42,175 bases of DNA from a virus: positions 1 through 42,175 of IMG/VR virus record IMGVR_UViG_3300047666_000695; one strand, 5' to 3'. The notes beneath the pieces are model-generated. The model ran no database searches and had not been told where the DNA came from. It worked only from the letters and a program-made list of their open reading frames with translations. The translations under genes and the position numbers were made by a program. Shown piece after piece: positions 1 to 40,741 of this stretch; the stretch's first letter is position 1, and every line of letters starts with the position of its first letter.

Positions 1-105
1 TTTATCAGTATCGACCCACACGCGCAAACCACCAAACCCGTCAAGGTCAATGTTCGCCTTAGCAAAGTCAATGACCCGCCGATTCATTCCATATCCAATA
101 TTCAT
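1..105 (-). CDS. Partial recombinase-like regulator, N-terminus only (second copy)
   Basis: The window edge cuts this gene after 35 codons. The visible peptide is identical to the N-terminus of the 162-residue protein at 40111..40599, so a second copy of at least the 5' end exists beyond the edge, or the two are the same locus seen twice. The start is fixed by the other copy and by the promoter at 112..140, which puts the transcript start at or next to the ATG. Confidence 0.75.
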   Translation of the reverse strand, partial: MNIGYGMNRRVIDFAKANIDLDGFGGLRVWVDTDK

Positions 106-111
106 AATGCA

Positions 112-140
112 ACATTACGGCCTTATCATAAACATGTCAA
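112..140 (-). promoter_or_regulatory. Promoter of recombinase-like gene (left copy), leaderless
   Basis: On the minus strand a perfect TTGACA (135..140) is followed after exactly 17 bp by TAATGT (112..117). Only 6 bases separate the -10 box from the ATG at 105, so the mRNA should start at about the A of the start codon and have no leader. No Shine-Dalgarno sequence is possible. The right copy is conserved apart from one spacer base. Confidence 0.7.
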
Positions 141-183
141 CTCATAACCCAGCAAATTAAATCACGATTGTTGAAGATTTTTC

Positions 184-223
184 TTGCAGTGTTTTTGATT
201 GTGTGTTTATGTATTGATAACGG
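184..223 (+). promoter_or_regulatory. Candidate promoter of left accessory array
   Basis: Two overlapping candidates exist: TTGCAG (184..189) with TTATGT (207..212), and TTGATT (195..200) with TAACGG (218..223), both with 17-bp spacing. The second places the -10 box 26 bases before the ATG at 250, close to the spacing seen for other promoters of this phage. Neither is strong, so the exact site is uncertain. Confidence 0.35.
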
Positions 224-249
224 AAGATAAACATAGGGACCGATCAGAT

Positions 250-420
250 ATGCAGACACACACATCATACACATTCGATGAGCGCGATATCCGTGCGGCT
301 TTGGTTATGTATGCCTCCCAGCAGAACGGGGGTGACGGCCCTGTTATTGATCCGAACGATTTAGAGTTTGAAACCTCCACAAGTGACGAAATCAGCGCCA
401 ACGTGGCGGCAACATTATAA
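250..420 (+). CDS. Accessory array protein L1 (56 aa)
   Basis: First gene of the left accessory array. The ATG at 250 is preferred over an upstream ATG at 199 because it follows GGGACCGATCAGAT, a version of the AGGAC ribosome-binding motif used by every gene in both arrays. The protein is acidic, with no membrane segment or recognised motif; a short helical stretch (DERDIRAALVMYASQQ) lies near the N-terminus. Function unknown. Its position right after the duplicated promoter suggests early expression. Confidence 0.6.
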   Translation: MQTHTSYTFDERDIRAALVMYASQQNGGDGPVIDPNDLEFETSTSDEISANVAATL

Positions 421-431
421 GGACCGGAGAC

Positions 432-650
432 ATGAAAGCATTACAGCACCCGCGCGGAGATTGGGTTGTTCAACATGACAGTGGAGTTACGCGTCCCGGC
501 GTTTTTGACAGTGAGGAAACAGCCAACCAAAGCATGTATCTTACCGCTCAAAAATTGCAGTCAATCTATGTTCCACTACGCAGTGGCGGATCGCCGTTGA
601 CAATGGATCAAATCAAAGCTGCATTCCCGCAGCCACAACCGACAACATAG
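432..650 (+). CDS. Accessory array protein L2 (72 aa)
   Basis: Small soluble protein with no recognised family, 11 bases after the preceding stop and behind AAGGACCGGAGAC. It begins MKALQHPRGDWVVQHDSG and ends in a Pro/Gln-rich tail. The N-terminal half reads like a small beta unit (GDWVV, SGV, PGVFDS) followed by a helix. Arrays of tiny genes with matched translation signals are typical of phage early host-takeover regions, but nothing in the sequence points to a particular target. Confidence 0.6.
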   Translation: MKALQHPRGDWVVQHDSGVTRPGVFDSEETANQSMYLTAQKLQSIYVPLRSGGSPLTMDQIKAAFPQPQPTT

Positions 651-662
651 AAGGACACCCAG

Positions 663-869
663 ATGCTTGATTGGAAAGACGACGACAAAGAATACCACAT
701 TGTTGCAGAAAGCGGGTCGGATATTTTCCCTGTCCATCTTCAAATCGAGAAGACAAAAAACGGCAGCTTTTGGGCTTATGCAAACGGCGCAATGTTGGGC
801 CACAGCACGGACATCGAAGGCGTCAAAGAAATCTGCCAGTCGCACCACGACAAATGGCACAAAGATTAG
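663..869 (+). CDS. Accessory array protein L3 (68 aa)
   Basis: Unrecognised small acidic protein behind GAAGGACACCCAG. It starts MLDWKDDDKEYHIVAESGSD, has aromatic and charged strands (FPVHLQIEKTKNGSFWAYA), and ends His-rich (CQSHHDKWHKD). The alternating strand pattern suggests a compact beta-rich fold with a C-terminal helix. Overlapping frames at 667 and 671 have no ribosome-binding site at their starts. Confidence 0.6.
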   Translation: MLDWKDDDKEYHIVAESGSDIFPVHLQIEKTKNGSFWAYANGAMLGHSTDIEGVKEICQSHHDKWHKD

Positions 870-879
870 GACCGATGAT

Positions 880-1188
880 ATGAACAGAGACACATGGATG
901 GGGCTAAAAGATGACGGCACTCAAATCCAGATCAGTCATTCGGGATTGATGGATTGGGCGTATCGCAATGACAAACAAATCACTGTGGGCTGGGGGCATA
1001 GCTTCCAGCACAAAGACAAGCGCTTGGTTCGTGGCGAGTACGTGAAAGAGGCGCTGAAGTCTGGGTGGAATGATCTTGCTCAGATGCTTGTGAAGCACTT
1101 AGGGGATTGCCCCGGCCTTCACATCGAAGGCAACAACTTCAGCGGATGCAATCAGAGCGCCGGAGACTGCCCAACTTGCGGCCAGTAA
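880..1188 (+). CDS. Accessory array protein L4 (102 aa)
   Basis: The frame is open from 667, but the real start is the ATG at 880, directly behind TTAGGACCGATGAT, the same ribosome-binding sequence that precedes the truncated gene at 42127. The C-terminus carries several cysteines (DCPGLH, SGCNQ, GDCPTCGQ), including a terminal CxxC, which suggests metal binding or a disulfide. No family recognised. Confidence 0.6.
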   Translation: MNRDTWMGLKDDGTQIQISHSGLMDWAYRNDKQITVGWGHSFQHKDKRLVRGEYVKEALKSGWNDLAQMLVKHLGDCPGLHIEGNNFSGCNQSAGDCPTCGQ

Positions 1189-1212
1189 AACAACCAACGA
1201 TTAGGACGCACC

Positions 1213-1398
1213 ATGGCTTTAAGAGCGAATATAAATGAACCTGTGATCGGTGGCTTCACTGTCAGTGTCGGCGGGAACTTTACGATGCAGGTTCCGAACA
1301 AAGGCCTTGCCGAAAAAATCATGGAAGCTTTGCGTTTAAGTTACCAGCAAGGGCATGAAGATCGTGTCCAAATGATCCAGCAAGCGCATAGAGCATAG
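1213..1398 (+). CDS. Accessory array protein L5 (61 aa)
   Basis: Small unknown protein behind TTAGGACGCACC. The pattern is a short beta part (GGFTVSVGGNFTMQV) followed by an amphipathic helix (AEKIMEALRLSYQQGHEDRVQMIQQAHRA), a common layout for small phage inhibitors or DNA-binding proteins. The family is not recognised and function is not assigned. Confidence 0.55.
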   Translation: MALRANINEPVIGGFTVSVGGNFTMQVPNKGLAEKIMEALRLSYQQGHEDRVQMIQQAHRA

Positions 1399-1409
1399 AA
1401 GGACGCACC

Positions 1410-1598
1410 ATGCTAACATTTTTTACCGTGCTGTATATCTACGCAAACGGAGCGCCAATTTACGCATTGCCATTCCCAAGCCATGCAACCTGCTCGCAAG
1501 CATTATTGCAGCTTGAGGAGCTTTCCGCTAAATGCCAAGAAACGAACCTGATCACCAGATCACCGCGGCCACAAGCGCGGCCTTGGTCAGATACCTAA
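1410..1598 (+). CDS. Accessory array protein L6 (62 aa)
   Basis: Unknown small protein behind GAAGGACGCACC. The N-terminus (MLTFFTVLYIYANGAPIYALPF) is hydrophobic and could be a weak signal peptide or membrane anchor, followed by two cysteines (TCSQAL, AKCQET). It precedes a small lipoprotein, so both may act at the envelope. This is inferred from hydrophobicity only. Confidence 0.5.
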   Translation: MLTFFTVLYIYANGAPIYALPFPSHATCSQALLQLEELSAKCQETNLITRSPRPQARPWSDT

Positions 1599-1623
1599 AA
1601 CAAACCCCCGAAAGGAAAGAAAC

Positions 1624-1851
1624 ATGAAAACCATTATTGCACTAATTACATGCGCGGCCCTGACATCCGGTTGCGCGTCACCCGCCGAAATTGCGAACCA
1701 ATCGAAAGGCACTTGCGCATTGCTGGGATACTCGGAAACCGACCCACGTTACACGGAATGCACAGAGCGCGGGTTTCGTGGGCAAACCGCCGCGCAACAA
1801 CAAACCCAAGCTGAAATAGTCAGGTTCTTTATTTTTAGGGCGCTGTTGTAA
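1624..1851 (+). CDS. Small putative lipoprotein, last gene of left array
   Basis: A 75-residue protein with a classic export signal: positively charged start (MKTIIALI), hydrophobic core and a probable lipobox ending at Cys17 (LTSGC), giving a predicted mature lipoprotein of about 59 residues with further cysteines. Its ribosome-binding site is AAAGGAAAG, not the AGGAC type of the rest of the array. It is followed by a bidirectional terminator. Superinfection-exclusion lipoproteins look like this, but that role is a guess. Confidence 0.6.
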   Translation: MKTIIALITCAALTSGCASPAEIANQSKGTCALLGYSETDPRYTECTERGFRGQTAAQQQTQAEIVRFFIFRALL

Positions 1852-1857
1852 ACGCAA

Positions 1858-1890
1858 AAAGCCCGCGCCCCTTTACAGGACGCGGTCTTT
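1858..1890. terminator. Bidirectional terminator between convergent blocks
   Basis: Arms AAAGCCCGCG (1858..1867) and CGCGGTCTTT (1881..1890) pair with one mismatch around a 13-base loop. It lies between the end of the plus-strand array and the end of the minus-strand late operon, where a two-way terminator is expected; it overlaps the last codons of the outer spanin gene. Confidence 0.6.
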
Positions 1891-2136
1891 CTCGTCACAG
1901 CCTGCTTTTAGCTGATCTAAGAGCGCATTGAGCGATTGCCGCGCAACAGCGCCGCCGTCTTCTAGCGCGCCCTGTGCCGCCGTTCTGCGTGCGTCCTGCG
2001 TGCCTTCACAGATCGCGCTATCATTTGGCGTGGTCGCGCAAGCTGTCATCAACATCAGCGCTGCTAAGATCGGGACGAATTGCAGCCTCAATCCGCGCTT
2101 TCGTGGCGATGTATTCGTTATGCGTGTCTGTCTCAT
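1873..2136 (-). CDS. Outer-membrane spanin (Rz1-like lipoprotein), 87 aa
   Basis: Short lipoprotein: basic n-region (SPRKRGLRL), hydrophobic stretch (FVPILAALMLM) and lipobox LMTAC, leaving a mature part rich in Ala, Asp and Gln. It starts inside the upstream membrane-protein gene in another frame, as Rz1 does inside Rz. The ATG at 2136 is chosen because GGGAGCG lies upstream; an earlier in-frame ATG at 2166 is possible. Expected role: joining inner and outer membranes in the last step of lysis. Confidence 0.6.
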   Translation of the reverse strand: MRQTRITNTSPRKRGLRLQFVPILAALMLMTACATTPNDSAICEGTQDARRTAAQGALEDGGAVARQSLNALLDQLKAGCDEKDRVL

Positions 2137-2221
2137 TATCTGTGCGCTCCCTGCGCTTGCCCGCAAAAAATGCCGCGATGACTCCTACAACGGCCACTAG
2201 CCCTATAATTGCCTCAATCAT
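2021..2221 (-). CDS. Inner-membrane spanin-like protein (66 aa)
   Basis: One N-terminal membrane segment (MIEAIIGLVAVVGVIAAFFA) followed by KRR and a charged helical tail. Its start overlaps the holin stop (ATGA), so the genes are translationally coupled. The lipoprotein gene begins inside it in a different frame, the usual nested spanin layout. At 66 residues it is much shorter than lambda Rz, so the periplasmic arm would be very short; assignment rests on topology and position. Confidence 0.5.
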   Translation of the reverse strand: MIEAIIGLVAVVGVIAAFFAGKRRERTDNETDTHNEYIATKARIEAAIRPDLSSADVDDSLRDHAK

Positions 2222-2415
2222 GTCTGGCCCAGCGGCGTTGTAGTTACGCTGCGCAAATACATATTGCCGATGTTGACCATAAGCGTTGCAGCCAGCCCCA
2301 CTAGTGCAGCCTGAGCGTCTGTCATGCCAAGGTGCCCCACGTATTGCAGGACCGCCCCGGCAACCATCACAAGCAGCGTGACGGCGTTGAATATGATTGT
2401 GCGATAGCCCTTCAT
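2218..2415 (-). CDS. Putative holin (65 aa, two membrane segments)
   Basis: Two hydrophobic segments (about residues 8 to 27 and 34 to 53) are separated by a short turn containing GHLGMTDAQ, matching small class II holins. The frame extends upstream, but the ATG at 2415 follows AAAGGG and overlaps the amidase stop as ATGA. Lying directly after the endolysin and before the spanin pair, it is the best candidate for the timed pore. Confidence 0.65.
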   Translation of the reverse strand: MKGYRTIIFNAVTLLVMVAGAVLQYVGHLGMTDAQAALVGLAATLMVNIGNMYLRSVTTTPLGQT

Positions 2416-2939
2416 TTGCGGCCCTTTCCAAATATTGCGAAAAACGCCGCGAAGATTGCGGCAAATCGGTTGGGTTTCGTTGGTGTGGCCATAACGCCAT
2501 CCCACCATGCCGTCGCATCAAAGCCGGGGCATTGTGTTGCGGCCCCTGGCATGTCGCGATGCCCCTTGATGATGGCGCCCGGGAACCGCAGCTTGAGTTC
2601 CTTGATCGCTGCAATCATTTCTTTGGTCTGGCCTGGTGTGCGACTATCGAAACCTGTATTGCGGTCCGCAAGCGTCACGCCGCCTTCAAAGCAAAGCCCA
2701 ATTGATGAATCATTCTCGCCCTTAGACTGCGCACCCATTTCAAAGCGACCGGGCTGCGTGAGGTCGCGGCCATAAACGCGGCCACCATTGCGGGGGAAAT
2801 AAATATGATACCCGCCCTCTTTGAACCCACGTCTTTTGTGGTCAGCTTCAAGCCGAGAATATGGATATTCGTTTTCGATTGGGGTTGCGCTGTAGTGGAT
2901 GCAGATCACCGTCACTGCGCTGTCTGGTCTGTAGCTCAT
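2412..2939 (-). CDS. Endolysin: N-acetylmuramoyl-L-alanine amidase
   Basis: A 175-residue amidase of the T7 lysozyme type (Amidase_2). The zinc ligands are visible as His15 (ICIHYSAT), His127 (KGHRDMPG) and Cys137 (TQCPGFD), with Tyr44 (GGYHIYF) matching the conserved tyrosine. The residue corresponding to the T7 catalytic lysine appears to be Thr135, as in many relatives. The C-terminus is a hydrophobic and basic amphipathic tail (RFAAIFAAFFAIFGKGRK) that may help it reach membrane or outer envelope. It cuts the amide bond between muramic acid and L-alanine. Confidence 0.92.
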   Translation of the reverse strand: MSYRPDSAVTVICIHYSATPIENEYPYSRLEADHKRRGFKEGGYHIYFPRNGGRVYGRDLTQPGRFEMGAQSKGENDSSIGLCFEGGVTLADRNTGFDSRTPGQTKEMIAAIKELKLRFPGAIIKGHRDMPGAATQCPGFDATAWWDGVMATPTKPNRFAAIFAAFFAIFGKGRK

Positions 2940-3193
2940 TGGTTCGCCTTTCCTTGCGATTGCTGCCGGATCTCTCGAACGTCTGTGTGTATTTCATCAA
3001 TCCGACGGTGCAGCGCCTCGTTTCGATCTGAAGAAAGCTGGTCACGTTCGTTAATTGTGTTAGCCAGCATTTCAATTTGTTTTTGATTTGTGAGCGCCCG
3101 CCTGACTATCCACCCGATAAACGATGTGGTGCCAATCATGCCCGCGACGACAAGCGAAACCGCCGCGTCAGATACATCCTGCATACTGATCAT
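2936..3193 (-). CDS. Membrane-anchored coiled-coil protein (85 aa)
   Basis: One membrane segment (about residues 10 to 30) is followed by a long charged coiled-coil helix (QKQIEMLANTINERDQLSS, then RRIDEIHTDVREIRQQ). Single-TM plus periplasmic coiled coil is the architecture of Rz-type spanins and XhlA-like lysis proteins. The ATG at 3193 overlaps the upstream stop and its own stop overlaps the amidase start. It competes with the 66-residue protein for the inner-spanin role. Confidence 0.55.
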   Translation of the reverse strand: MISMQDVSDAAVSLVVAGMIGTTSFIGWIVRRALTNQKQIEMLANTINERDQLSSDRNEALHRRIDEIHTDVREIRQQSQGKANQ

Positions 3194-4383: not shown

Positions 4384-4389
4384 GTTTAA

Positions 4390-6381: not shown

Positions 6382-7277
6382 TAAATGAGTCCTTCGATTT
6401 CGATTGTTGCGTCAGACAGAAGCGGCGAGGAAAGGGTGATGTCAAATCTGCGATAATATCCGTAAAGAACTGTTGCTAGTTCCTCGCGCGGATCTCCGAC
6501 CCAGACAACCGGCGTCGTTCTGTATTCCGAGAGCAGACCTTGCACGCGCCTTGCCGCAGCAGTCGGGATCTTGATGTCAAAATCTGCCGTCTGTGAAAAC
6601 TCTCTTTCGACGATAATCACGTTGCCGAATGCGTCGCGCTCTTTTCTGCTGTAATCCTCAATTGAGACATTCACGCCCATTGTCGTAACGCCAAGTTCAG
6701 CGTCGCGGCCATAGACTATCTGTCCAATTTCGGCAGTTCCTCCGGTATTTGTAACCGTTATTGAGGTTGACGCCGATGCATAAGGTGGAATGTTAATCTC
6801 TAAGACTTCTGTCTGCTGAACGCCGATTGGGGAAAAATAGTACGTGTACCAATCAACAACGGAGGTTTCATCAATTAGATTGTACGTCTGCGAGAAAACC
6901 ACTCCATCTGTCGGATCTGTCACGACGATTTCAAGCGTTGTGCCTTTCATTCCAAACAAAGCAAACGCGCCAACGTAAACGCCAGCGTGCGCAAGAACGT
7001 AGTTAATGCTTTCCGCCTGCGTTGTTAGGTCTGATAGGCGTTTATCGAATGCCTTATATCGGTTTGTTGCGCTCAATCGCAGCCATTTCAAAACAGCCGT
7101 GTCGGGCTGGTTCCCCACGTTTGAGCCCGCAATGCTTTCATAAATTGCGTGATCATAAATGACCAAGGCGGCGGCTGCGTATGTTGTTCCGATGTCCCAC
7201 GCCGCCGCGTCGTTTTCCGGCACGTTTGAGGACGTCAGGTTTGTGTCTGTGACGGTTATCGGGGGGATAATTCTCAT
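6381..7277 (-). CDS. Tail tip protein with carbohydrate-binding-like segment (298 aa)
   Basis: Residues about 20 to 80 show the pattern AAAALVIYDHAIYESIAGSNVGNQP, then WLRLSATNRYKAFD, recurrent in phage tail proteins annotated as carbohydrate (chitin) binding. The rest is beta-rich with DPTDGVVFSQTYNL and a C-terminal domain (VWVGDPREELATVLYGYYRR). It is the first gene after the tape measure, where the distal tail or hub protein usually sits, so a baseplate role is likely. Confidence 0.6.
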   Translation of the reverse strand: MRIIPPITVTDTNLTSSNVPENDAAAWDIGTTYAAAALVIYDHAIYESIAGSNVGNQPDTAVLKWLRLSATNRYKAFDKRLSDLTTQAESINYVLAHAGVYVGAFALFGMKGTTLEIVVTDPTDGVVFSQTYNLIDETSVVDWYTYYFSPIGVQQTEVLEINIPPYASASTSITVTNTGGTAEIGQIVYGRDAELGVTTMGVNVSIEDYSRKERDAFGNVIIVEREFSQTADFDIKIPTAAARRVQGLLSEYRTTPVVWVGDPREELATVLYGYYRRFDITLSSPLLSDATIEIEGLI

Positions 7278-7280
7278 GTT

Positions 7281-10200
7281 TTATGTCCTGACCGGTGGCA
7301 TACCGTCGATGTCATGTTTGCGATCGATGTCACTGGTGCGTTTAACGTACTTGACAACCTCGACCATTACGCGCCGCAACTCTGACAAGTCCTTGCGCAC
7401 GCCTGAATCGTCATTGCTTTGATCGCTTGCGCTTGATGCTGTGCTACGGTCCACCATGCGCCGCGATAGATCGTGGGGAATGACCTGCGCACCGCTTGGC
7501 AGGTTGACGATTTCACCGCCCGCGCCGTCATGAATTTCAGCTAAACCGCCCGCAAAGTTCCTGACACCGCCTGCAAATGACGGTACATAGCCGTCTGCAA
7601 ACGTTATCATTCCGCTAGTATTGCCCGTTATCGGGCCTGTAAATGAAATTGCGCCGTCGATCCTAACTGTCATATTTTCAAACATAGAATTTTGAAGCAA
7701 CTGCACATTTATGAGACTGTTAAGCCTTGCTGTGACTTTATTAAGCTCACCATTCACGCTGCCTATTCCGGCGACGTTCAGGTCAGAGTTGAGGGTTTGA
7801 AGCAACTGACCAGATAATGTTTCATTGCCGCTCGCTGCGTTCGCAACTAGTCGCGTGATGTCAACCGTTTCGCCCTGCAAGCCCTGGACTGTTTGCAGTT
7901 CTGCGTTTGTTAAGCCCTGAACATGGTTCACACTGGTTGTCTGGCCCAAAATTGCATTTTCAAAATGGCCTGTTTGCGTTGCCATTCCTGCTATTGACTG
8001 CGATCCCTGAGCCGATAGACCCGCGACGACACGCCCAGAATTGTCCAGTAACGCCGCAACCGTCTGGCCCGCCGCGCTTACACTTGTCTGCACTTGTAGG
8101 TTTGCGCTGGATGTGATCAGCCCGCCTATGTCAGACAGAAGAGCAACTTGCTGGCGCATTAGATCGACGGTCATGTCACCGCTCTCTAGCATGTTCTTAG
8201 TAACTTCTAACGCCGCTGTCTGCAGGTCGAATGTAAGTGCCTGATAGTCTGCACCTAGGCCCATAGCCTCGGCCACCGCCGCGCCCTGATCAAGCTGCGA
8301 ACGAATACCGGCTTCCACGCGCTTTAGTTCAATCGCAGACGTGGCAAGCCCTGCGCTATTGGATGCCAATGACTGGCCCGCGCTGCCCAGTGAGCCTAGA
8401 GCGTCAACATCACCAGACGCCGCCGCAGCAAACATTTGCGCGAATTTCTGGCCTTCGTTTGCAAGATCCGCCGCAGTTGTTACGTTGCCAATGTTGCCAG
8501 ATGCTTCGCGCAAGCTGTCAGCCAAGCGAAAAAACTCATTTGCAGATTTGCGTGCATCAGATGCCGCGCTACGTGACGCTGCAAGCATGTCGTTAATAGG
8601 TGCCAGCGCCGCATCTGTTGCGCCCTGTATCGCGGCCCTAGCCGCCTCCGCTACAGCTTCCGCCGCATCCGCCAGCCGTTCAAGCTCTATACTTGCGGCA
8701 TCTGCGGCTGCGGCTTCGTGCTCCAGTAAATGAATCCGCGCAAGCAATGGTTGATTTAGCGCGTGGGTTGCATTCATTTCAGCGTTGCGCTGGCGTGCAA
8801 GCAACTCCATGCTTTCGCCCTGCGCTTCAAGCAGGCGGGTTGTTAGCGCGTAGTTTTGCGAAGCCACCGCATTTGCGGCTTCTGTGGCTGCCGCTTCGTC
8901 TTCTAGGTTGTTAATGCGCTCAAGCAATGGCTGGTTGAGCGCGTGCGTCGCGTCCATTTCAGCAGTGCGTTGACGTGTGAGCAATTCAGTGCTTCTACCC
9001 TGCGCCTCAAGCAGGCGGTTTGTTAGCGCGTAGTTTTGTGCAGCGGCAGTCACAAGTTCCTGTGTTGATGCGAATGCCCCAATCATTCCTGTAAACGCAT
9101 TGCCCAGCTTTGTCAATTCGTCAGCGATTGCCGCCTGTTGTGCAGCATCGTCCAGGCCTTTCAATGATAGCGTGAACTGGTGAGTGAAACCCGCAAACGC
9201 CTCTGCACCAAAGCCAAAGACGCCCGCCGCATCCATAATTGACGTTTGAATTTCGCCGATAGTCTGGCGCAACGGATCGGCAGCCGCGCCCATTTCATCA
9301 AATGCTGTGTGAATGTTTGTGGACAATCCCCAGAACCGCGATGTCTTAACTTTGTCAAAGCTTTCAACCATGCTGTTGAGGTTCGTTGTCGTAATCCGCA
9401 GGCCTTCGTCTAGCGTGCTGGTCTTTGTGCTGAAAAACGAAAACGCCGCCGTGACCGCAAGCAACGGCACGGCAATTGCGCCCGCCGCTGCTGCAAGGCC
9501 TGCCGTTGTTGACGTGGCCATGGTCATTGACGTTGCAACACCTTCAAGCCCAGCCATGAGGCCGCCAGAGAATGCGGAAAGGCTTGAAGCGGCCCCTGTC
9601 AATGCACTGGACACAAGGCCAGACGCCCCGCCTAGACCTGACGCAACAGTCGCAGAACTACCCGCCATGCCGATGCTGATCATAATTTTATTGCGTGCTG
9701 CGGTTGCTATCATTTCAGCCAGCATGTTTTTAAAGCCGTCAACAATTGTGTTTTTGAACTGTTCAAACCCGGCGATTCCTTGCGTCAAGAATGTGCCGAA
9801 TGCATCTGATAGGCTGTTCACGATTGGGTTGCTGTTTAACAACCCTTCGTTTAGATCATCAACGGCTTTACGGTATGCGCCATCTGACAGGCCGTTGTCA
9901 AGCAACACGCCCAATTCCTCAAGCTCTGCGTTATATTTAGCCACTGGGTCAGCGTCGAATTCAAGACGTTCGATTTCGTCAGCCATTGCCTTGGCTTCCT
10001 TGGCTGCGTCTGACAGCGCCTTAGCTGCCCCGCCCGCGCCGCGTGTGATTGCGTCAAATTTAGGCCCGATGTTTAGCGTGCCAACAATGTCTTGAAGCGT
10101 CCTAGATTCCCTGACTTGTCCCACGGCCATGTCTGGACCGGACGCGCCACCGCTGCCGCCAATACGGGACAGGGCCAGCGCAATCGTGAAAGATGTACCC

Positions 10201-11951
10201 AATTTTTCCGCCAACGTTTGGGCGTCGGCAATTATGTTTGCCATACCCATCTTGCCAGTTATTTCAGATAGGCGCCCCGATAGATCAACGGAATAAAGCG
10301 CCGCTGAATTATAGCCCTCCTGCCTTTTCTCAAGCTCGGCAATGTTGGCTTCTATAGCCGCAGATGCAGCCGACAGGTCTTCATTGGCAATGACGCCTTC
10401 CCGAATTGTTGCTATAAATTCCTTTTGAGCGGTAAGAGCATCCAGTATCCTAAGTTCTGCGTCCTCGAATCCTGCAGTTCCCTCTCTTTGGGTCCGCAAT
10501 GCGTCGCGAGCGTTTTGAATATTGGTAATCAGCTTTTGATAGCCCGGCTCCTGCAAAGCCATTTCGACACGCTGCTCTTGCATGGCCTTGACGTCTTCCC
10601 GCCGAGCCTTTGCTTTTTCAAGCTCTCCAAGTATGACCTGCATCGTCATACCGTGACCGTTTGCAAGCGTATCTCGCAAAAAGTTTGAGGCGTTTACTTG
10701 ATCCCCGATTGCCATGCTTGTGTTATCGAAAGACATTTGCAATGTGGCTTGCGCCTTGTCTTGTGTTGTTTGCTCCGCAAGCAAGTTCCCAAATGCGTCA
10801 ACCGCAGACTTCACTGCCTCTACTGCCGTTGATATTGCACGGGTAAATCCTGTGACCGCTGTAACTGCCACGCGAATGATCGCAGTCAGGCCCGCATCGC
10901 CAAGTGCAATGGCCAAGCCCTGCGCTGCCGACATTGCGCCCTTTAGATCGCCGCCCAAGTTGTCGCGCATGGTTGCGGCCATATCGCCAGCCGCGCCGTC
11001 CGCGCGCGCTAGTTCGTCGCCAAAATTGCCGACCCGTTGCGCCCCGTCGATCAAGACTAACGCGCCTGACGCGGCCTCGCGCCCAAACACCGTCATAGCG
11101 TCAGCAGTTGATAGGCCTGCCGCGCCTAGTTTTGCCATGACCTCGCTTAGATCGTTCGTGGCTGGGTCAACGTCAGCAATAGTCAGGCCAAGGCCACGGA
11201 TTACCGCCTCCGCTTGTGTTGTGGGTCCAGCAAGGGCAGCAAGGACGCCGCGCAAGCCTGTGCCTGCACGCTCGCCTTGGATGCCCGCGTCAGACAGGAC
11301 GCCAATCGCAGCCGCCGTGTCTTCCAATGACATATCGAGTGCGCTTGCAATTGGTGCAACTGTTGACATAGCCGCGCCAAGTTGTCCGACTGTTGTGTTT
11401 GCGCGTGTGGATGCAGCCGCGAGAACGTCGGCAACTTGGGCCGCGTTGGCCGCTTCGATGCCAAAGCCGCTCATGATGTTAGATGCTGTGTCAGCCGCAG
11501 CCGCCAAGCCCATGCCGGATGCTGTCGCAAGGTCAAGAACCGAGGGTATTGCCGCCATAGCTTCTGTCGCATTAAAGCCAGCCATTGCGAGAAAATTAAG
11601 GCCGTCCGCTGCTTGGCTGGCACTAAATTCCGTTGTTGAGCCGAGGTCTTTTGCGATGTCGCGCAATGCCTCAAGCTCGCCAGATGTTGCACGGCTGACC
11701 GCGCCAAGCCGTGACATGCTTGTCTCAAAGTCGGCAATGATCCGAACCGCGCTACCAATAGAAACAATCGCGCCCAATGCAGCCGTGGCCGCTATTGCGA
11801 CCGCGTTAAAGCTGCGTTTTGCAGACCCGCCAAATTTATCAACCTTGCCAGACGTGCGATCACTTTGCGCGCCAAATTGCTTTAGATCACGCTCGCCACG
11901 TTTTAGCTGAGACGTGTTGACGCCAAGGACAAGGTTCGCAAAATCAGTCAT
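7281..11951 (-). CDS. Tail tape measure protein (1556 aa)
   Basis: Largest gene in the window. The N-terminus has the TP901-type tape-measure core (about residues 70 to 300: FETSMSRLGAVSRATS, ASQAADGLNFLAMAGF, GIQGERAGTGLRGVLAAL). Long Ala-rich helices follow, then a hydrophobic part (about 750 to 840), a duplicated 60-residue unit (about 971 to 1091) and a C-terminal region ending in a basic helix. At about 1.5 angstrom per residue this predicts a tail near 230 nm. It sits after the tail chaperones, as expected. No peptidase or lysozyme domain was noticed. SD is AAGGAT. Confidence 0.95.
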   Translation of the reverse strand: MTDFANLVLGVNTSQLKRGERDLKQFGAQSDRTSGKVDKFGGSAKRSFNAVAIAATAALGAIVSIGSAVRIIADFETSMSRLGAVSRATSGELEALRDIAKDLGSTTEFSASQAADGLNFLAMAGFNATEAMAAIPSVLDLATASGMGLAAAADTASNIMSGFGIEAANAAQVADVLAAASTRANTTVGQLGAAMSTVAPIASALDMSLEDTAAAIGVLSDAGIQGERAGTGLRGVLAALAGPTTQAEAVIRGLGLTIADVDPATNDLSEVMAKLGAAGLSTADAMTVFGREAASGALVLIDGAQRVGNFGDELARADGAAGDMAATMRDNLGGDLKGAMSAAQGLAIALGDAGLTAIIRVAVTAVTGFTRAISTAVEAVKSAVDAFGNLLAEQTTQDKAQATLQMSFDNTSMAIGDQVNASNFLRDTLANGHGMTMQVILGELEKAKARREDVKAMQEQRVEMALQEPGYQKLITNIQNARDALRTQREGTAGFEDAELRILDALTAQKEFIATIREGVIANEDLSAASAAIEANIAELEKRQEGYNSAALYSVDLSGRLSEITGKMGMANIIADAQTLAEKLGTSFTIALALSRIGGSGGASGPDMAVGQVRESRTLQDIVGTLNIGPKFDAITRGAGGAAKALSDAAKEAKAMADEIERLEFDADPVAKYNAELEELGVLLDNGLSDGAYRKAVDDLNEGLLNSNPIVNSLSDAFGTFLTQGIAGFEQFKNTIVDGFKNMLAEMIATAARNKIMISIGMAGSSATVASGLGGASGLVSSALTGAASSLSAFSGGLMAGLEGVATSMTMATSTTAGLAAAAGAIAVPLLAVTAAFSFFSTKTSTLDEGLRITTTNLNSMVESFDKVKTSRFWGLSTNIHTAFDEMGAAADPLRQTIGEIQTSIMDAAGVFGFGAEAFAGFTHQFTLSLKGLDDAAQQAAIADELTKLGNAFTGMIGAFASTQELVTAAAQNYALTNRLLEAQGRSTELLTRQRTAEMDATHALNQPLLERINNLEDEAAATEAANAVASQNYALTTRLLEAQGESMELLARQRNAEMNATHALNQPLLARIHLLEHEAAAADAASIELERLADAAEAVAEAARAAIQGATDAALAPINDMLAASRSAASDARKSANEFFRLADSLREASGNIGNVTTAADLANEGQKFAQMFAAAASGDVDALGSLGSAGQSLASNSAGLATSAIELKRVEAGIRSQLDQGAAVAEAMGLGADYQALTFDLQTAALEVTKNMLESGDMTVDLMRQQVALLSDIGGLITSSANLQVQTSVSAAGQTVAALLDNSGRVVAGLSAQGSQSIAGMATQTGHFENAILGQTTSVNHVQGLTNAELQTVQGLQGETVDITRLVANAASGNETLSGQLLQTLNSDLNVAGIGSVNGELNKVTARLNSLINVQLLQNSMFENMTVRIDGAISFTGPITGNTSGMITFADGYVPSFAGGVRNFAGGLAEIHDGAGGEIVNLPSGAQVIPHDLSRRMVDRSTASSASDQSNDDSGVRKDLSELRRVMVEVVKYVKRTSDIDRKHDIDGMPPVRT
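8679..9038 (-). repeat. Tandem 180-bp repeat inside tape measure gene
   Basis: Two adjacent 180-bp units encode near-identical 60-residue blocks starting QNYALTNRLLEAQG and QNYALTTRLLEAQG, both continuing to THALNQPLL. Divergence grows toward the end of the second unit. The period is in frame, so unit gain or loss would change tail length by about 9 nm. Confidence 0.85.
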
Positions 11952-17498: not shown

Positions 17499-17583
17499 GC
17501 AGGTTATGCGGCAATTACCTCCGCAAGTCACAGTTATTCAAGCACACAAATACACTACTTTTGCGCGGGATGCAAGGGGTTTG

Positions 17584-17763
17584 TTAGGGGGCTGTTGCGC
17601 AAGTCTCAAGGATTATAAAATCAGTTCCTTGAGGGATGTCATCGGGAGACTTGCAAAAAACAGACTTAACGCCCATGCCATCGCCAACCTCTATTCTAAT
17701 CGGAAATTTTTTCGGATTAAATGGCGGCGCACCTGTGATGTTGTATATTGCTTTTTCAAACAT
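17584..17763 (-). CDS. Moron-like small protein between head genes (59 aa)
   Basis: Found by direct reading. It begins MFEKAIYNITGAPPFNPKKF and ends FIILETCATAP. The start is backed by a very strong AGAGGAGAA ribosome-binding site and a promoter (17788..17816) overlapping the end of the minor head gene; two terminators follow. The pattern is beta-rich (FPIRIEVGDG, VKSVFCKSP). A gene with its own promoter and terminator inserted between head genes is the definition of a moron. Function unknown. Confidence 0.75.
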   Translation of the reverse strand: MFEKAIYNITGAPPFNPKKFPIRIEVGDGMGVKSVFCKSPDDIPQGTDFIILETCATAP

Positions 17764-17787
17764 GGTATTCTCCTCTGGTTCATCCCA

Positions 17788-24600: not shown

Positions 24601-24933
24601 CTTGATAAACTTGAATGATTGAATTGCATAGGCTTCCCGCCTTTCGTTAAGGCATCCCGCCTAGTTGGTTGTGTTTGAGCGCGGGCCAGATTCAACGCCG
24701 AGGCGTAGGGCTTACTGACTTGCCCTGCTTATTCGCCGCGCTCATGAGGTGTGACACATTGGCGATCAGTCCAACTTCCGCAGTGAAATCCTGCATTACG
24801 TTCACACCACATCAAAGCGGTTTATTTAACAACATTCACGCAAAAGGAACATAATTCACATTAAACGTGTAAACGCGCAACAGGCCTTACGTGTTATTGA
24901 ACGTAATTCCTCGCCCTCACAAATAGCAGGTTT
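24601..24933 (-). other. Intergenic region before terS
   Basis: This 333-bp stretch holds structured element R1 (24676..24821) and, beyond it, an AT-richer part with no convincing gene. A 34-codon frame (24692..24796) begins in R1, encoding SHLMSAA in the same place as the frame in R2, but its ribosome-binding site is poor. No packaging site could be identified by eye, though this is a usual position for one. Confidence 0.5.
24676..24821 (-). ncRNA. Structured RNA element R1
   Basis: On the minus strand: a hairpin ACCGC-TTTGAT-GTGGT, then GGTGTGA pairing with TCACACC 46 bases later, then a 9-bp stem TGAGCGCGG/CCGCGCTCA enclosing 51 bases with inner arms AGGGC/GCCCT and ACGCC/GGCGT. The same three stems, in the same order, recur in R2 about 1.1 kb upstream with different inner sequence. 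The T-G pair in the first hairpin forms only in minus-strand RNA (as U-G), so the element acts as late-operon RNA. Confidence 0.55.
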
Positions 24934-25811: not shown

Positions 25812-25985
25812 TGAGCGCGGTGACGAATTGAACGTCCTACAGCGGGCTTCCCCAGTTAGTTGTGGGAATTGAACCCACCTGCCTACCGTTTCCCCTGCCG
25901 CGCTCATGAGGTGTGACAAGTGGGGGCGGGAGTATTGATAGCCGCCGCCTTTCGCATAATCCATAGTCACACCGCATCAAAGCGG
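25812..25985 (-). ncRNA. Structured RNA element R2, tRNA-like core
   Basis: Same layout as R1: hairpin CCGC-TTTGAT-GCGG, GTGTGAC pairing with GTCACAC, and the 9-bp stem TGAGCGCGG/CCGCGCTCA. The enclosed core looks like a class II tRNA: GGGGAAACGGTAGG resembles a tRNA-Leu D-arm, GTGGG-TTCAATT-CCCAC has CAA in the anticodon place (Leu), a long variable part follows, and GACG-TTCAATT-CGTC is a T-arm with the right loop. But the D-stem does not pair well, the acceptor has 8 to 9 pairs and no CCA is encoded. It may be a degenerate tRNA, a mimic or an unrelated fold. Confidence 0.5.
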
Positions 25986-34403: not shown

Positions 34404-34432
34404 TTGAACTTCCGCCCGCTTTCCGCTAAGGT
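34404..34432 (+). promoter_or_regulatory. Early internal promoter 2 (TAnGGT family)
   Basis: TTGAAC (34404..34409), 17 bp, TAAGGT (34427..34432); the ATG follows 28 bases later at 34461. The palindrome CCGCTAAGGTTAGCGG (34423..34438) spans the -10 box and could be an operator; GCCCGCT/AGCGGGC offers an alternative hairpin. Confidence 0.6.
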
Positions 34433-34460
34433 TAGCGGGCAACCCAACGGAGAAAACACC

Positions 34461-35156
34461 ATGCACCCCAACGCAATAATTCACGAAGACCTTGAACAGG
34501 GCAGCCCCGAATGGCTGGCAGCACGTCGCGGGCTTATGACGGCAAGCGAAATGAACCTTGTATTGACGCCAACGCTCAAGCCGAGCAACAACGACAAAAC
34601 CCGCGCGCATATTTACGAAATTGCGGCCCAACGGATCACGGAATGGACCGAGCCAACTTATATCGGCGACGCAATGTTACGTGGCCATGCTGACGAAATC
34701 ACGGCACGCGATCTATACAGTGACCGGATCGAGCCAGTTGAGGAAAAGGGCTTTATCACGCGCGACTTTGGCGGATTTATGCTTGGGTATAGCCCGGACG
34801 GCTGCGGGATTATGGGCAATTTTGGGATCGAGTGTAAAAGCCGCGTCCAGAAACATCACATTAAAACAGTGATCACAAACGAAGTCCCAACGGAATACAT
34901 GTTGCAGGTCCAAACAGGTCTTCTTGTGACCGGCTGGGATTACATGGACTACATCAGTTTTTCCGCAGGTTTGCCAATGTGGATTATTCGTGTCGAGCCA
35001 ATTGCCGAGTATCAAGACGCGATTATAAATGCTGCGGAATCGTTTGAAGAGTCCGTGCGTGATTGCGTTAAATCGTATTCAGGCCAGATCAAGGGATGCA
35101 AAACGCTAATTGAAACCGAACGTGAACCCGACGAAGATTATGGAGAGGTACTATGA
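34461..35156 (+). CDS. YqaJ-type recombination exonuclease (231 aa)
   Basis: Lambda exonuclease fold: SPEWLAARRGLMTASEM near the start, AMLRGHADEITARDLY, the catalytic GYSPDGCG (Asp) and GIECKSRVQKHH (Glu-x-Lys), then VPTEYMLQVQTGLLVTG with the conserved Gln. It resects double-stranded ends to give 3' single strands. The ATG at 34461 follows AACGGAGAAAACACC; an upstream in-frame ATG at 34404 coincides with the promoter. Overlaps the next gene by ATGA. Confidence 0.9.
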   Translation: MHPNAIIHEDLEQGSPEWLAARRGLMTASEMNLVLTPTLKPSNNDKTRAHIYEIAAQRITEWTEPTYIGDAMLRGHADEITARDLYSDRIEPVEEKGFITRDFGGFMLGYSPDGCGIMGNFGIECKSRVQKHHIKTVITNEVPTEYMLQVQTGLLVTGWDYMDYISFSAGLPMWIIRVEPIAEYQDAIINAAESFEESVRDCVKSYSGQIKGCKTLIETEREPDEDYGEVL

Positions 35157-36214: not shown

Positions 36215-36224
36215 GGAAAACACC

Positions 36225-36434: not shown

Positions 36435-36435
36435 C

Positions 36436-36642
36436 ATGGGAAACAACCACCTAGAGCGAAGTTTTCGTTGTCCTGAGTGTTGGCGTGGCTATAATTCCGC
36501 GTCAACTGTCGAGAACCACCGCCGCAAATCGCAAGGCGAATGCATTATCTACAACCCCGGCAAAGCAACCGGAATCGCCACCTTTAGAAAAAAACACGGG
36601 ATTGCCGAACGGCTACCGTTGCCAGAAAGAGAAACACTATGA
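36436..36642 (+). CDS. Small zinc-finger protein (68 aa)
   Basis: Contains FRCPECWRGYNSASTVENHR then KSQGEC: a CxxC, a conserved aromatic spacing, His and a final Cys, that is a C2HC-type finger. The remainder is basic (FRKKHGIAERLPLPE). The ATG at 36436 lies one base after the previous stop. It probably binds DNA or RNA; overlap of 4 bases with the kinase gene. Confidence 0.7.
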   Translation: MGNNHLERSFRCPECWRGYNSASTVENHRRKSQGECIIYNPGKATGIATFRKKHGIAERLPLPERETL

Positions 36643-37541: not shown

Positions 37542-37565
37542 GCGCACCCATAAAACCCACACAAC

Positions 37566-37601
37566 AAAGGCCGCAACCCATAACAATGTAGCGGCCTTTT
37601 T
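37566..37601. terminator. Bidirectional terminator between early block and minus operon
   Basis: Arms AAAGGCCGC (37566..37574) and GCGGCCTTT (37591..37599) pair perfectly around 16 bases, with TTTTT on the plus side and AAA on the other. Placed between convergent genes. Confidence 0.9.
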
Positions 37602-37606
37602 CATTG

Positions 37607-38845
37607 CTAAAACCAAACAGTAAACCGCCCGTCTTGCCCGTCGAATGGGTGATGAACAAAGCACTCAACAGCTTGGCGGTTTACATATCCATTCCGATCA
37701 TGCCAGCCATCAGGTGGCGACATACTGCGGACATATTCAATCTGCACATTATCGCCTTCCATTGATCGCGCGGCATTGTGCATCATTGTCATGCCGATGT
37801 GATCTTTCTCGCGCTTGTGAGACATGACCCCAGCCTGCTTGCGGATCTTATGGTGCAGGTGATGAACGTACCAATAACGATGCGTGCAATCCGAAATATG
37901 CGCCCGCGCCTCTGTCATCATCAGCGGGTAAAGGTCGGCCTCCTTTGCCCCATCGCCATGCGTTACGCCGATCAAGTTGTTTTCAAACCGATAATATTTG
38001 CGGTGTTTTTCTGACAGATTGTATTCCGTCGCGGTAACATCAGGGGCGTTGCGAAACCATGCGCCGACCTCGCGGGCCAAACACCAGCCCATAAGCCAAT
38101 CATGATTTGAGGGGCAGAATATCAGATCAACCGGCGCTGTTAGGCGCGCAAGCTCAATCGCGCCAACATATCCGGCAAATGCGTCCTTATACATTTGGTG
38201 GATTGTGCCGTGCGTGTCTTGCTGAGTACCGCTTGTTGTACTTGACCGCGCGTTGTCAACGTGCAAAATATCGTTGCCGATCACAAACAAGATCCGGCCT
38301 ATACCCATACCCGATGCCTTGCGGATCAACTCGCGCGTGCCTTCAACCATTCGCTGCACTGCAATCTCGCGGCTGTACGTGTAGCCTGTCTCTGTTTCAA
38401 CGCACATCTTGCCAACGTGGACGTCTGCCAGGTCGATCACAAGCAGGCATTCGCCCTCTGGTTTTTGTCGGATCTCGTAATTAGGCACGTCAATAGTTTG
38501 CAGATCATCAATTGCGCCGCGTATTGTGTCAAGGAATTTGCTTGTTTCCGCCTCATCAACAGGAGCGGACCATCGCGTTGTCCCTGTTTTGTTGCCAGTC
38601 GTCGGATCGTAATTGTGAATCCATCCGCCCCTAGCCTCGATCCCGTTAAGCCCAGCGCCTTGCATTGCGGATTGCGCACCATCGGATAAGTGCAACCCGC
38701 GCTCTTTGGCTTTTTTGATCCGTGCCGTTAGTGTGTTCGCGTGCAGCCCTAATTCCTTAGCTGCTAGGTGCGTTTTACCATGGTTTCTGTCCAGCGCGTC
38801 AAGCGCTTCGATTGCAAGCTCATTGCTTAGTGGTGGCGTTGGCAT
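37607..38845 (-). CDS. HTH-metallophosphoesterase fusion (412 aa)
   Basis: The N-terminal 60 residues form a helix-turn-helix (LAIEALDALDRNHGKTHLAA, then LGLHANTLTARIKKAKERG), Fis-like. A calcineurin-type phosphoesterase follows: LLVIDLADVHVGK (D-x-H), FVIGNDILHVDN (GND), FCPSNHDWLMG (NHD) and GVTHGDGAKEADL (GDG). The ATG at 38845 follows AAAAGGGC; a longer frame starts upstream. The fusion suggests recruitment to DNA or RNA for phosphodiester cleavage. Substrate unknown. Confidence 0.85.
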   Translation of the reverse strand: MPTPPLSNELAIEALDALDRNHGKTHLAAKELGLHANTLTARIKKAKERGLHLSDGAQSAMQGAGLNGIEARGGWIHNYDPTTGNKTGTTRWSAPVDEAETSKFLDTIRGAIDDLQTIDVPNYEIRQKPEGECLLVIDLADVHVGKMCVETETGYTYSREIAVQRMVEGTRELIRKASGMGIGRILFVIGNDILHVDNARSSTTSGTQQDTHGTIHQMYKDAFAGYVGAIELARLTAPVDLIFCPSNHDWLMGWCLAREVGAWFRNAPDVTATEYNLSEKHRKYYRFENNLIGVTHGDGAKEADLYPLMMTEARAHISDCTHRYWYVHHLHHKIRKQAGVMSHKREKDHIGMTMMHNAARSMEGDNVQIEYVRSMSPPDGWHDRNGYVNRQAVECFVHHPFDGQDGRFTVWF

Positions 38846-38859
38846 GGTTTTTGCCCTTT

Positions 38860-39027
38860 TTAATGATTGGAAGACAGCCTGTCCGAAATACACCGCATAA
38901 ATCGGACATCACTTGCCCCGCTGTCGGGGTCTGGGTCGCTTGCTTCCATTGCTGCAATGAACCGGGCCCTTGCCCGCTTGCCGTATTCTGTTTTGTAAAA
39001 TCTTGCCAGACGCTCGCAGCTATCCAT
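38860..39027 (-). CDS. Small hypothetical protein (55 aa)
   Basis: Found by direct reading. It has one of the best SDs in the window (AAGGAGG, 7 bases before the ATG). The product starts MDSCERLARFYKTEYGKRAR, is charged and helical with an Asp/Pro-rich turn (EASDPDPDSGASD) and ends RFMRCISDRLSSNH. A possible promoter (GTGACG, 17 bp, TACAAT at 39044..39072) lies upstream. It precedes the phosphoesterase. Confidence 0.7.
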   Translation of the reverse strand: MDSCERLARFYKTEYGKRARARFIAAMEASDPDPDSGASDVRFMRCISDRLSSNH

Positions 39028-39039
39028 TTTATTCCTCCT

Positions 39040-39231
39040 TCAAATTGTAGTGTGAGCAGTCGGGATCGTCACATCTGCCCGCCCACCCGCAGATCTACAA
39101 AGGCTGCAGGTAACCGGCTCCCACTGACAATACACAAGATCACATTTAGCATTGTACCAACACTCACCGACGCGGCGAAAATAGAAGACCCAGAACGCCA
39201 TCCATTTTGGTAGCTTGAAACTAACCTTCAT
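39040..39231 (-). CDS. Small Cys- and Trp-rich protein (63 aa)
   Basis: Starts MKVSFKLPKWMAFWVFYFRR; a short hydrophobic stretch followed by several cysteines (GECWYNAKCDLVYCQWEP, then CSLC), which may bind metal. The ATG overlaps the previous stop (ATGA). Function unknown. Confidence 0.6.
   Translation of the reverse strand: MKVSFKLPKWMAFWVFYFRRVGECWYNAKCDLVYCQWEPVTCSLCRSAGGRADVTIPTAHTTI
39044..39072 (-). promoter_or_regulatory. Possible internal promoter before 55-aa gene
   Basis: GTGACG (39067..39072) and TACAAT (39044..39049) are 17 bp apart, the second matching the -10 consensus at 5 of 6. It would serve the 55-aa gene and the phosphoesterase separately from the upstream operon. Confidence 0.4.
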
Positions 39232-39491
39232 ACTTCCGGCTCCCTTGGTGCAAACGGCTTTTTTAACAAGTCATCAAGATTAAAGGCGGGAACCCAAAAC
39301 GACTGACAGGCAGGCCCCATGCACATCACGCCCTTATCTGTCCGCATCCCAAGCCAGCCCTCTGGCATCAATGGCTCGCAAATAATGTCGATTCCTGCAA
39401 GCTCGCCACCCTTACCAAGGGTTGAACAGGTCATGGCTTCTCCTGCCTTTCTAAAGCCAGCATCGCGGGCCAGAGCATCAATTTTATTCAT
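39228..39491 (-). CDS. Hypothetical protein (87 aa)
   Basis: Starts MNKIDALARDAGFRKAGEAM and shows a mixed beta pattern (GIDIICEPLMPEGWLGMRTD, then KGVMCMGPACQSFWVPAFNL). Overlaps both neighbours by 4 bases. SD AAGGAGGGG. No recognised family. Confidence 0.65.
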   Translation of the reverse strand: MNKIDALARDAGFRKAGEAMTCSTLGKGGELAGIDIICEPLMPEGWLGMRTDKGVMCMGPACQSFWVPAFNLDDLLKKPFAPREPEV

Positions 39492-39613
39492 TGCAACCCC
39501 TCCTTGTCGTTAATGTTTCGAATGTCCAAAAAGTTCATTTTCCACATTACCCACGCTCCAAACGAAACAGACAATGGGAGGCCGTTAGTGTAATTCAAAA
39601 AATCCAAAATCAT
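39488..39613 (-). CDS. Microprotein (41 aa)
   Basis: Found by direct reading. MILDFLNYTNGLPLSVSFGA followed by WVMWKMNFLDIRNINDKEGLQ; possibly a short membrane-associated helix. It fits exactly between two genes with ATGA overlaps at both ends, the main evidence that it is real. Confidence 0.55.
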   Translation of the reverse strand: MILDFLNYTNGLPLSVSFGAWVMWKMNFLDIRNINDKEGLQ

Positions 39614-39783
39614 GTACGACCCTCCATTAATGCTACGCTGGCCTTAAGCGCCGCGCCACCGCAACATGCGTCGCAGCAAGGGTTGTCCTCAATGTCCAGC
39701 ATTACTGCCCGCAACCTATCAATCTCGCCGTAAGCCTGAGATAATTGTCCGTCCAACATCTTAACCATTTGCTTAGGTGTCAT
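39610..39783 (-). CDS. Small helical protein with Cys cluster (57 aa)
   Basis: Starts MTPKQMVKMLDGQLSQAYGE and continues as a helix (IDRLRAVMLDIED) with NPCCDACCGGAALKASVALM, a CC-x2-CC cluster that may bind metal. The ATG at 39783 overlaps the previous gene by 11 bases. Function unknown. Confidence 0.6.
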   Translation of the reverse strand: MTPKQMVKMLDGQLSQAYGEIDRLRAVMLDIEDNPCCDACCGGAALKASVALMEGRT

Positions 39784-39937
39784 CAGTATGACCCTCCTTC
39801 GGTGTAGCGTACAGGACATCATTAACGAAGTCCTGATACTGCTTTGCATAACGCGCCTTGCAGTGACATTCCGGTGCAGGCTTTCCGCAGTCCGCAACAC
39901 AGATTCGACCATCGTCAGGATGAGGTGTGAGGCTCAT
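39773..39937 (-). CDS. Small Cys-rich protein (54 aa)
   Basis: Begins MSLTPHPDDGRICVADCGKP, then APECHCKARYAKQYQDFVND. The Cys and His residues (C-x3-C, C-x-C, H) suggest a zinc-binding site. AAGGAGCC is the SD and the ATG overlaps the previous stop as ATGA. Function unknown. Confidence 0.65.
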   Translation of the reverse strand: MSLTPHPDDGRICVADCGKPAPECHCKARYAKQYQDFVNDVLYATPKEGHTDDT

Positions 39938-40110
39938 GCTTCTGGCTCCTTGTCGTTGGCTGTAGGAAATGTCCAAACGGCAATCAGGCAGGCCATGATG
40001 AAGGTTCCGAACTGGTCCCAATTTATCGCCCATCCGAACGCTAGCAAAGTGAAACATTCAGACAAAACCCATGTCACCAGTACAATAATCATCCATCCCC
40101 ATTTCCCCAT
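39934..40110 (-). CDS. Small membrane protein (58 aa)
   Basis: Found by direct reading. Two hydrophobic segments (MIIVLVTWVLSECFTLLAFG and FIMACLIAVWTFP) joined by a short loop. The ATG directly follows the stop of the recombinase-like gene (TAGATG). Holin-like in size, but it is far from the lysis genes; exclusion or signalling roles are equally possible. Confidence 0.6.
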   Translation of the reverse strand: MGKWGWMIIVLVTWVLSECFTLLAFGWAINWDQFGTFIMACLIAVWTFPTANDKEPEA

Positions 40111-40599
40111 CTATTCGCACTCCTTGGCTTTGGGCGCACTGCGCGTCCCAATGTTGTCGTTTAGGGTTGACCGCGTGACCCACGTAAAGCCCGCGTCGTG
40201 AAAGGCCTTGATAGCCGCCTGCCATGTGTACACATCGGGCATATGCCACAGGTCAGAGCCCGCCTTAACCACATCAACAGGGATGCTAGGCCAGCGCGGC
40301 TTAGGACCCGGCTTGCGCGGCTCTGGTGGCGGGCTGGCATCATCGACCAGCGACACAACGGCCCCGTGCGCTTCAATCTTTCGTTTGTTCTCCGCTAGGT
40401 CAAAGCCCTTGCCCAGATCAGCAAGAGACAGCACAAAAACCGCGTCCCCCTCGATCAGCGACATGAGCATGTCTGAAAATTCAGGCCGTACCTTTTTATC
40501 AGTATCGACCCACACGCGCAAACCACCAAACCCGTCAAGGTCAATGTTCGCCTTAGCAAAGTCAATGACCCGCCGATTCATTCCATATCCAATATTCAT
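40111..40599 (-). CDS. Catalytically dead serine-recombinase-like regulator (162 aa)
   Basis: Residues 1 to 88 follow the resolvase N-terminal domain: NIGYGMNRRVIDFAKANIDL, VWVDTDKK, IEGDAVFVLSLADLGKG, and GAVVSLVDD. But the nucleophile Ser (YARVST in resolvases) is absent, and the catalytic D-R-L-G-R is A-D-L-G-K, so it cannot cut DNA. A basic proline linker (EPRKPGPKPRWPS) leads to a C-terminal region resembling a helix-turn-helix (WQAAIKAFHDAG, TWVTRSTLNDNIG). It probably binds DNA, perhaps its own duplicated promoter. First gene of the minus operon, leaderless. Confidence 0.8.
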   Translation of the reverse strand: MNIGYGMNRRVIDFAKANIDLDGFGGLRVWVDTDKKVRPEFSDMLMSLIEGDAVFVLSLADLGKGFDLAENKRKIEAHGAVVSLVDDASPPPEPRKPGPKPRWPSIPVDVVKAGSDLWHMPDVYTWQAAIKAFHDAGFTWVTRSTLNDNIGTRSAPKAKECE

Positions 40600-40605
40600 A
40601 ATGCA

Positions 40606-40634
40606 ACATTACGGCCTTATTATAAACATGTCAA
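40606..40634 (-). promoter_or_regulatory. Promoter of recombinase-like gene (right copy), leaderless
   Basis: TTGACA (40629..40634), 17 bp, TAATGT (40606..40611); ATG begins 6 bases after the -10 box, at 40599. Differs from the left copy at one spacer base. Confidence 0.7.
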
Positions 40635-40677
40635 CGCATAACCCAGCAAATTAAATCACGATTGTTGAAGATTTTTC

Positions 40678-40717
40678 TTGCAGTGCTTTTGATTGTGTGT
40701 TTATGTATTGATAACGG
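40678..40717 (+). promoter_or_regulatory. Candidate promoter of right accessory array
   Basis: Equivalent to 184..223. Candidates TTGCAG with TTATGT and TTGATT with TAACGG; the base change at 40686 (C for T) lies in the spacer of the first. The -10 of the second is 24 bases before the ATG at 40742. Confidence 0.35.
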
Positions 40718-40741
40718 AAGATAAACAAAAGGACCAATCAA

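Follow-up and report, generated by a model that had tools for sequence, protein, structure and literature searches.

The two ends of a phage contig probably show one hypervariable small-gene locus beside a pseudo-resolvase gene

Variable phage loci and start-associated motifs are each known separately (PMC3909814, PMC3203893). Metaviromic islands of marine phages are segments that differ between near-identical co-occurring phages (Mizuno et al. 2014, PMC3909814); those of known function hold mostly host-recognition and packaging genes, and they were found by under-recruitment of reads. Phage accessory-gene and anti-restriction hot spots, the hot spots of P2 and P4 being an example (PMC9122126), carry small variable genes at highly variable places, some of them serving counter-defence (Silas et al. 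2025, PMC12373910). On a smaller scale, the Start-Associated Sequence (SAS) of cluster K mycobacteriophages is a short, conserved, non-palindromic motif that includes part of the Shine-Dalgarno sequence and precedes, by a few bases and on one strand, the start codons of small non-structural genes of different families; at about half of the sites it is accompanied by 17-bp inverted repeats (Pope et al. 2011, PMC3203893).

The locus described here lies in G000, a 42,175-base virus record from IMG/VR, the whole of which we call the window. Like metaviromic islands, it differs in content between close relatives; unlike them, it is a row of small genes beside the lysis region and was recognised without read recruitment. 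It shares with the accessory hot spots its small variable genes, with Mom and a DNA methyltransferase in sister arrays, but adds a divergent pseudo-resolvase and cassettes that open with a start motif, and the anti-defence part of the window's own genes is putative. As in the case of SAS, the motif stands at the ribosome-binding position of many non-structural genes and is rare elsewhere. Yet it is TAAGGACCGA-like, whereas that of cluster K, in different phages, is GGGATAGGAGCCC; extended inverted repeats were not noticed at the window motifs, whose start regions were read rather than systematically scanned; and differences from array to array begin at the motif. Judged by its letters, the window motif is an analogue of SAS and not the same element, because it is AAGGACC-like and not GGGATAGGAGCCC. 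As far as a limited literature search shows, the combination of a variable locus with a pseudo-resolvase and motif-bordered cassettes is new.

Aligned with itself by BLASTN, the window matches 1-246 to 40495-40740 at 97.6% identity (E 1e-118). The original prediction had described a 230/233 repeat of 1-233 and 40495-40727 with three mismatches, all non-coding, ending before the first ribosome-binding site, and this description is borne out: the mismatches lie at 127, 142 and 192, the gene has its start at 105 in the left copy and at 40599 in the right, and further differences follow at 234, 236, 242 and onwards, likeness stopping where the first array gene has its ribosome-binding site. Each copy consists of the start of a leftward gene, identical over coding bases 1-105 and 40495-40599, and of its 128-base divergent upstream region. 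As the contig end breaks off the left copy of the gene, the window has it complete only once. The arrays behind the two copies (Table 1), rightly called unrelated, have no homologous protein in common (all-against-all BLASTP, E 0.01), and the longest DNA words common to them are 15 bases, both such words being start motifs. Array R is cut before its end, and a junction of it with the lysis flank would lie outside the window.

Table 1. Positions of the locus and related features in the window
Feature	Position	Strand	Remark
Second view of pseudo-resolvase gene, first 35 codons	1..105	-	cut by contig end
Divergent intergenic (promoter/operator) region, left view	106..233	.	125/128 identical to 40600-40727
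Array allele L	234..1598	+	six small genes, each behind a GGAC start motif
Array L genes	250-420, 432-650, 663-869, 880-1188, 1213-1398, 1410-1598	+	
Downstream flank	1624..2939	.	lipoprotein (+), convergent lipoprotein (1873-2136 -), amidase endolysin (2412-2939 -)
RecE-like exonuclease	34404-35156		
Pseudo-resolvase, 162 aa	40111..40599	-	small serine-recombinase fold and C-terminal helical DNA-binding-like domain (Pfam, Foldseek)
Divergent intergenic (promoter/operator) region, right view	40600..40727	.	125/128 identical to 106..233
Array allele R	40728..42175	+	each gene behind a GGAC start motif; cut by contig end
Array R genes	40742-41020, 41032-41493, 41512-41640, 41652-41903, 41917-42108, 42127- (open)	+	
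R2	41032..41493	+	only gene of the window arrays common to other arrays
R3, 42-aa four-cysteine zinc-ribbon protein	41512..41640	+	weak Lar-like match

In de Bruijn assembly, where a contig opens one k-mer ahead of a difference, it does so at a branch of the graph and not at a physical genome end. The left repeat copy starts with the very first base of the contig, and 126 bases precede the first difference between L and R. A relative, G003, closes on itself, its ends repeating each other exactly over 127 bases, which hints that such assemblies work with k-mers of 127. Both the window's left end and the closure of G003 resemble joins of a long-k-mer assembler. We dropped the 126-base spacing as a strict assembler signature (k = 127), the comparable run in another relative, G039, being 111, and take it as only supportive. 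Two alleles at one locus and two genomic copies both give such a branch; therefore, the relatives must decide.

We find the same protein in three contigs, G001 (35,805 bases), G002 (36,355) and G003 (38,182), at 90, 77 and 75% identity, encoded once in each. The divergent region is kept at the DNA level in G001 and G002, where conserved blocks are seen, and distantly in G039. The original prediction had proposed a search of related phages for the same gene followed by yet other arrays; each of the three indeed differs, the gene being followed by a different set of small genes in the place of array L and then by a convergent lipoprotein and lysis or structural genes. As in the window, the array runs into the convergent lysis region in G001, G003 and G039/G040. 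The second array gene of G001 is the window's R2 (92% amino-acid identity), so that a gene of array R sits in a sister species where the window has array L. R2 is also found in G039/G040 (88%) and has distant relatives at about 30% identity in Aeromonas, Alteromonas and Acinetobacter phages.

The contigs reached through R2, G039 (40,403 bases, also from IMG/VR) and G040 (15,919 bases, from another metagenome), carry a distant homologue of the pseudo-resolvase at about 30% identity. The left end of G039 is an array that includes a DNA methyltransferase and a phosphoesterase and enters the lysis flank at 2661. At the right end stand the gene and an array with R2 and a different allele of the phosphoesterase, and the contig stops 185 bases into the same flank, the last 111 of these being identical between the two ends. 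In G040 the R2 array is joined straight to the lysis flank (99.3% over 1.7 kb), and this contig does not differ from the right end of G039 over 8,260 bases. A third metagenome gave G041, which matches G040 at 100% over 7,154 bases; this stretch takes in the gene with its divergent region and array gene 1. G041 then diverges inside AAAGGACCGAT, the ribosome-binding motif of array gene 2, and continues for only 31 bases past that point. Hence this relative has one locus with two alleles, and probably a third. The end pattern of the window is the mirror image of that of G039. Arrays thus differ behind the same gene in G001, G002, G003 and G039, and among G039, G040 and G041 they differ between identical or near-identical flanks; the same flanks with different gene content between close relatives is what we mean by a hypervariable locus.

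The best explanation as a whole, to which we give a probability of roughly 0.87, is that the two contig ends are the same hypervariable locus of a circular genome seen twice. The window would be one circularly closed genome of about 40.5 kb with about 1.7 kb of wrap-around: the assembler would have begun in array L, circled the genome once, re-entered the locus through the single pseudo-resolvase gene with its divergent intergenic region and ended in array R. The proposal of one hypervariable locus with two arrays of a population captured in one contig is supported, the same arrangement being found directly in G039/G040/G041, and for this phage we infer a single locus. Other contigs of the exact species linking either array to both flanks were looked for, in a search from which very near records may be hidden, and none was found; protein queries with the amidase, array L and array R (arrays concatenated) retrieved no relatives and no sister contig of the exact species, and an exact 41-base promoter pattern had no match in viral contigs.

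Could the gene and its promoter region stand twice in one genome? A tandem layout of gene, promoter, array R, gene', promoter', array L and lysis genes, for example, of which the contig would miss a short piece between 42175 and 1, would likewise break a contig inside the repeat, and three differences in 128 intergenic bases fit a young duplicate. We consider such a duplication quite improbable. Six further records with the gene or its distant homologue, including the self-closing G003, hold one copy each, and the contig is already of full genome length (40.5 kb vs 36-40 kb in relatives). Moreover, the same end pattern in G039/G040 is explained by alleles of one locus, and the coding bases of the repeat are identical although a redundant copy of a regulator would be free to drift. 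The earlier alternative, a real duplication with paralogous switches, is thus left without support. Least probable of all is a chimeric assembly, with array L or R from a different co-occurring phage species misjoined at the 233-base region: this region is conserved between species (90% identity between window and G001), long-k-mer assemblers can join there and the left end shows three differences from the right copy, but the known sister species fall far short of the 99% identity seen here, in a stretch that is partly non-coding, the same 15-base words stand in the start motifs of both arrays, and a chimera with arrays swapping in the population would differ from a single locus seen twice only by the distance between the two donors.

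The gene beside the arrays had been called recombinase-like; the resolvase fold stands, the catalytic residues do not. The AlphaFold2 model is of moderate confidence (pLDDT 69), and its best Foldseek matches in the PDB are all small serine recombinases (E 6e-5), the gamma-delta/Tn3/Sin resolvases at the top. The family profile finds gamma-delta resolvase (E 0.007), and Pfam Resolvase matches two of five family members (best E 4.5e-5). Like gamma-delta/Tn3 resolvase, Sin and Hin, the protein joins this N-terminal fold to a C-terminal helical DNA-binding-like domain, in that order. Unlike them, at the alignment positions of the catalytic YARVS and LDRLGR it has YGINR and LADLG; all five aligned members show YG[IM]NR for YARVS and [AG]DLG for DRLG, and in all five other residues replace the equivalents of gamma-delta Ser10, Arg8 and Arg68, which we take to be the catalytic residues. 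Because these equivalents are missing, the pseudo-resolvase is probably without recombination activity and a DNA-binding regulator of the divergent promoter, as far as the model and alignment allow. The divergent promoter itself is presumably regulated; a sigma-70 scan of the repeat scored no better than shuffles and we claim no promoter box. Switching driven by an active recombinase was considered but rejected, the catalytic residues being missing and the relatives differing by content, not by inversion. Searches for the pseudo-resolvase gene in bacterial genomes and named phages, and for the distant homologue in named phages and plasmids, had no match.

All 12 array genes of the window are preceded by the TAAGGACCGA-like motif. 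With gene starts as we chose them, GGAC stands at the start position of every one of the 12 array genes but of only 3 among the 52 other genes (Fisher p 1.4e-10), and the whole pattern with ATG occurs 12 times in the 2.8 kb of arrays vs 17 times in the remaining 81.5 kb of strands. The same motif is found at most array genes of G001, G002 and G039, while G003 mostly has a GGAAC form. Similarity between arrays stops and resumes at the start motifs: this applies to the border of L and R, to the switch in G041 and to the ends of R2 compared with G001 (borders at 41014 and 41509) and with G039. The prediction of two alternative whole arrays is therefore right in that the arrays vary, but the variation also runs gene by gene, with borders at start motifs. 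Gaps between array genes are short; exchange by whole genes would set borders between genes regardless, and the motif may be incidental. An active part of the motif in exchange is hypothetical. We think it unlikely that the motif, besides being a ribosome-binding site, is the exchange joint of a modular gene-cassette system which the pseudo-resolvase perhaps helps or marks. If it were, single genes would swap as recombination takes place at TAAGGACCGA-like sites, and the array would resemble an integron that lacks an active integrase; the pseudo-resolvase would perhaps bind next to the first motif.

For recombination, regulation and anti-defence at the locus we infer the following scheme. The locus would resemble an operon of exchangeable small genes, bounded on one side by the conserved region of the divergent regulator and on the other by the convergent lysis genes. 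Every gene would be a cassette opening with the TAAGGACCGA-like start-associated motif, so that a gene or block could follow any other and still be translated, with one promoter serving all. Phages infecting the same cell would acquire, lose and exchange cassettes through recombination in the flanks and probably at the motifs too, the RecE-like exonuclease of the phage being candidate machinery. The pseudo-resolvase, its recombination activity probably lost, would act on the divergent promoter as a DNA-binding regulator, and the array would most likely supply host-specific accessory functions such as anti-restriction.

For most array genes no function can be recognised. Array L genes gave no significant family match, PADLOC, whose library covers defence and not anti-defence, had no hit among those window array genes that were run against it, and the sole anti-restriction-like match in the window arrays is the sub-threshold one of the zinc ribbon R3 (Lar restriction-alleviation family, E 4e-4, below the Pfam cut-off). 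Named genes of sister arrays are the DNA-modification protein Mom (Pfam E 1.8e-37), an N6/N4 DNA methyltransferase (E 7e-27) and DUF551. Because Mom and a DNA methyltransferase are identifiable there, the locus may be an anti-restriction or general accessory island, and swapping of arrays probably serves to cope with different host defences. In G002 (L055, around 7150-7813) a very short reading frame behind the start motif runs into the start of Mom, possibly a translational coupling by analogy with com-mom of phage Mu, where translation is coupled. A phosphoesterase-like gene bearing an HTH is mosaic (37607-38893 in the window; L060 6787-8073; L077 1494-2654): the two G039 alleles have the N-terminal HTH part in common (86% DNA) and differ in the catalytic part, and the window copy, 81% identical at the DNA level to one of them in its C-terminal part, lies on the other side of the pseudo-resolvase gene.

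The phage has a large terminase of the type found in Salmonella and other siphoviruses, about 56% identical to its best named matches, and a primase whose nearest match, at 53%, belongs to a Microcystis phage. A small leftward gene among the head genes (17582-17764) is 75% identical at the DNA level to a small gene behind the G001 pseudo-resolvase and appears to have changed place between genomes. Adjacent 166-base repeats (8693-8858 and 8873-9038, 79.5% identical) inside the minus-strand gene 7281-11951 (1556 aa) are probably internal protein repeats. An exact 22-base repeat, GCCGCGCTCATGAGGTGTGACA, stands at 24735-24756 and again at 25897-25918, on the upstream side of the region of the large terminase gene, where it may serve packaging or regulation.

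The ends of a phage contig can hold two alleles of one locus, a situation that annotation would misread as a duplication and that checks of genome closure would miss. The pseudo-resolvase gene, its divergent region and the GGAC start motifs together are a marker for small genes of fast turnover, by which possibly anti-defence small genes can be retrieved from environmental phages.
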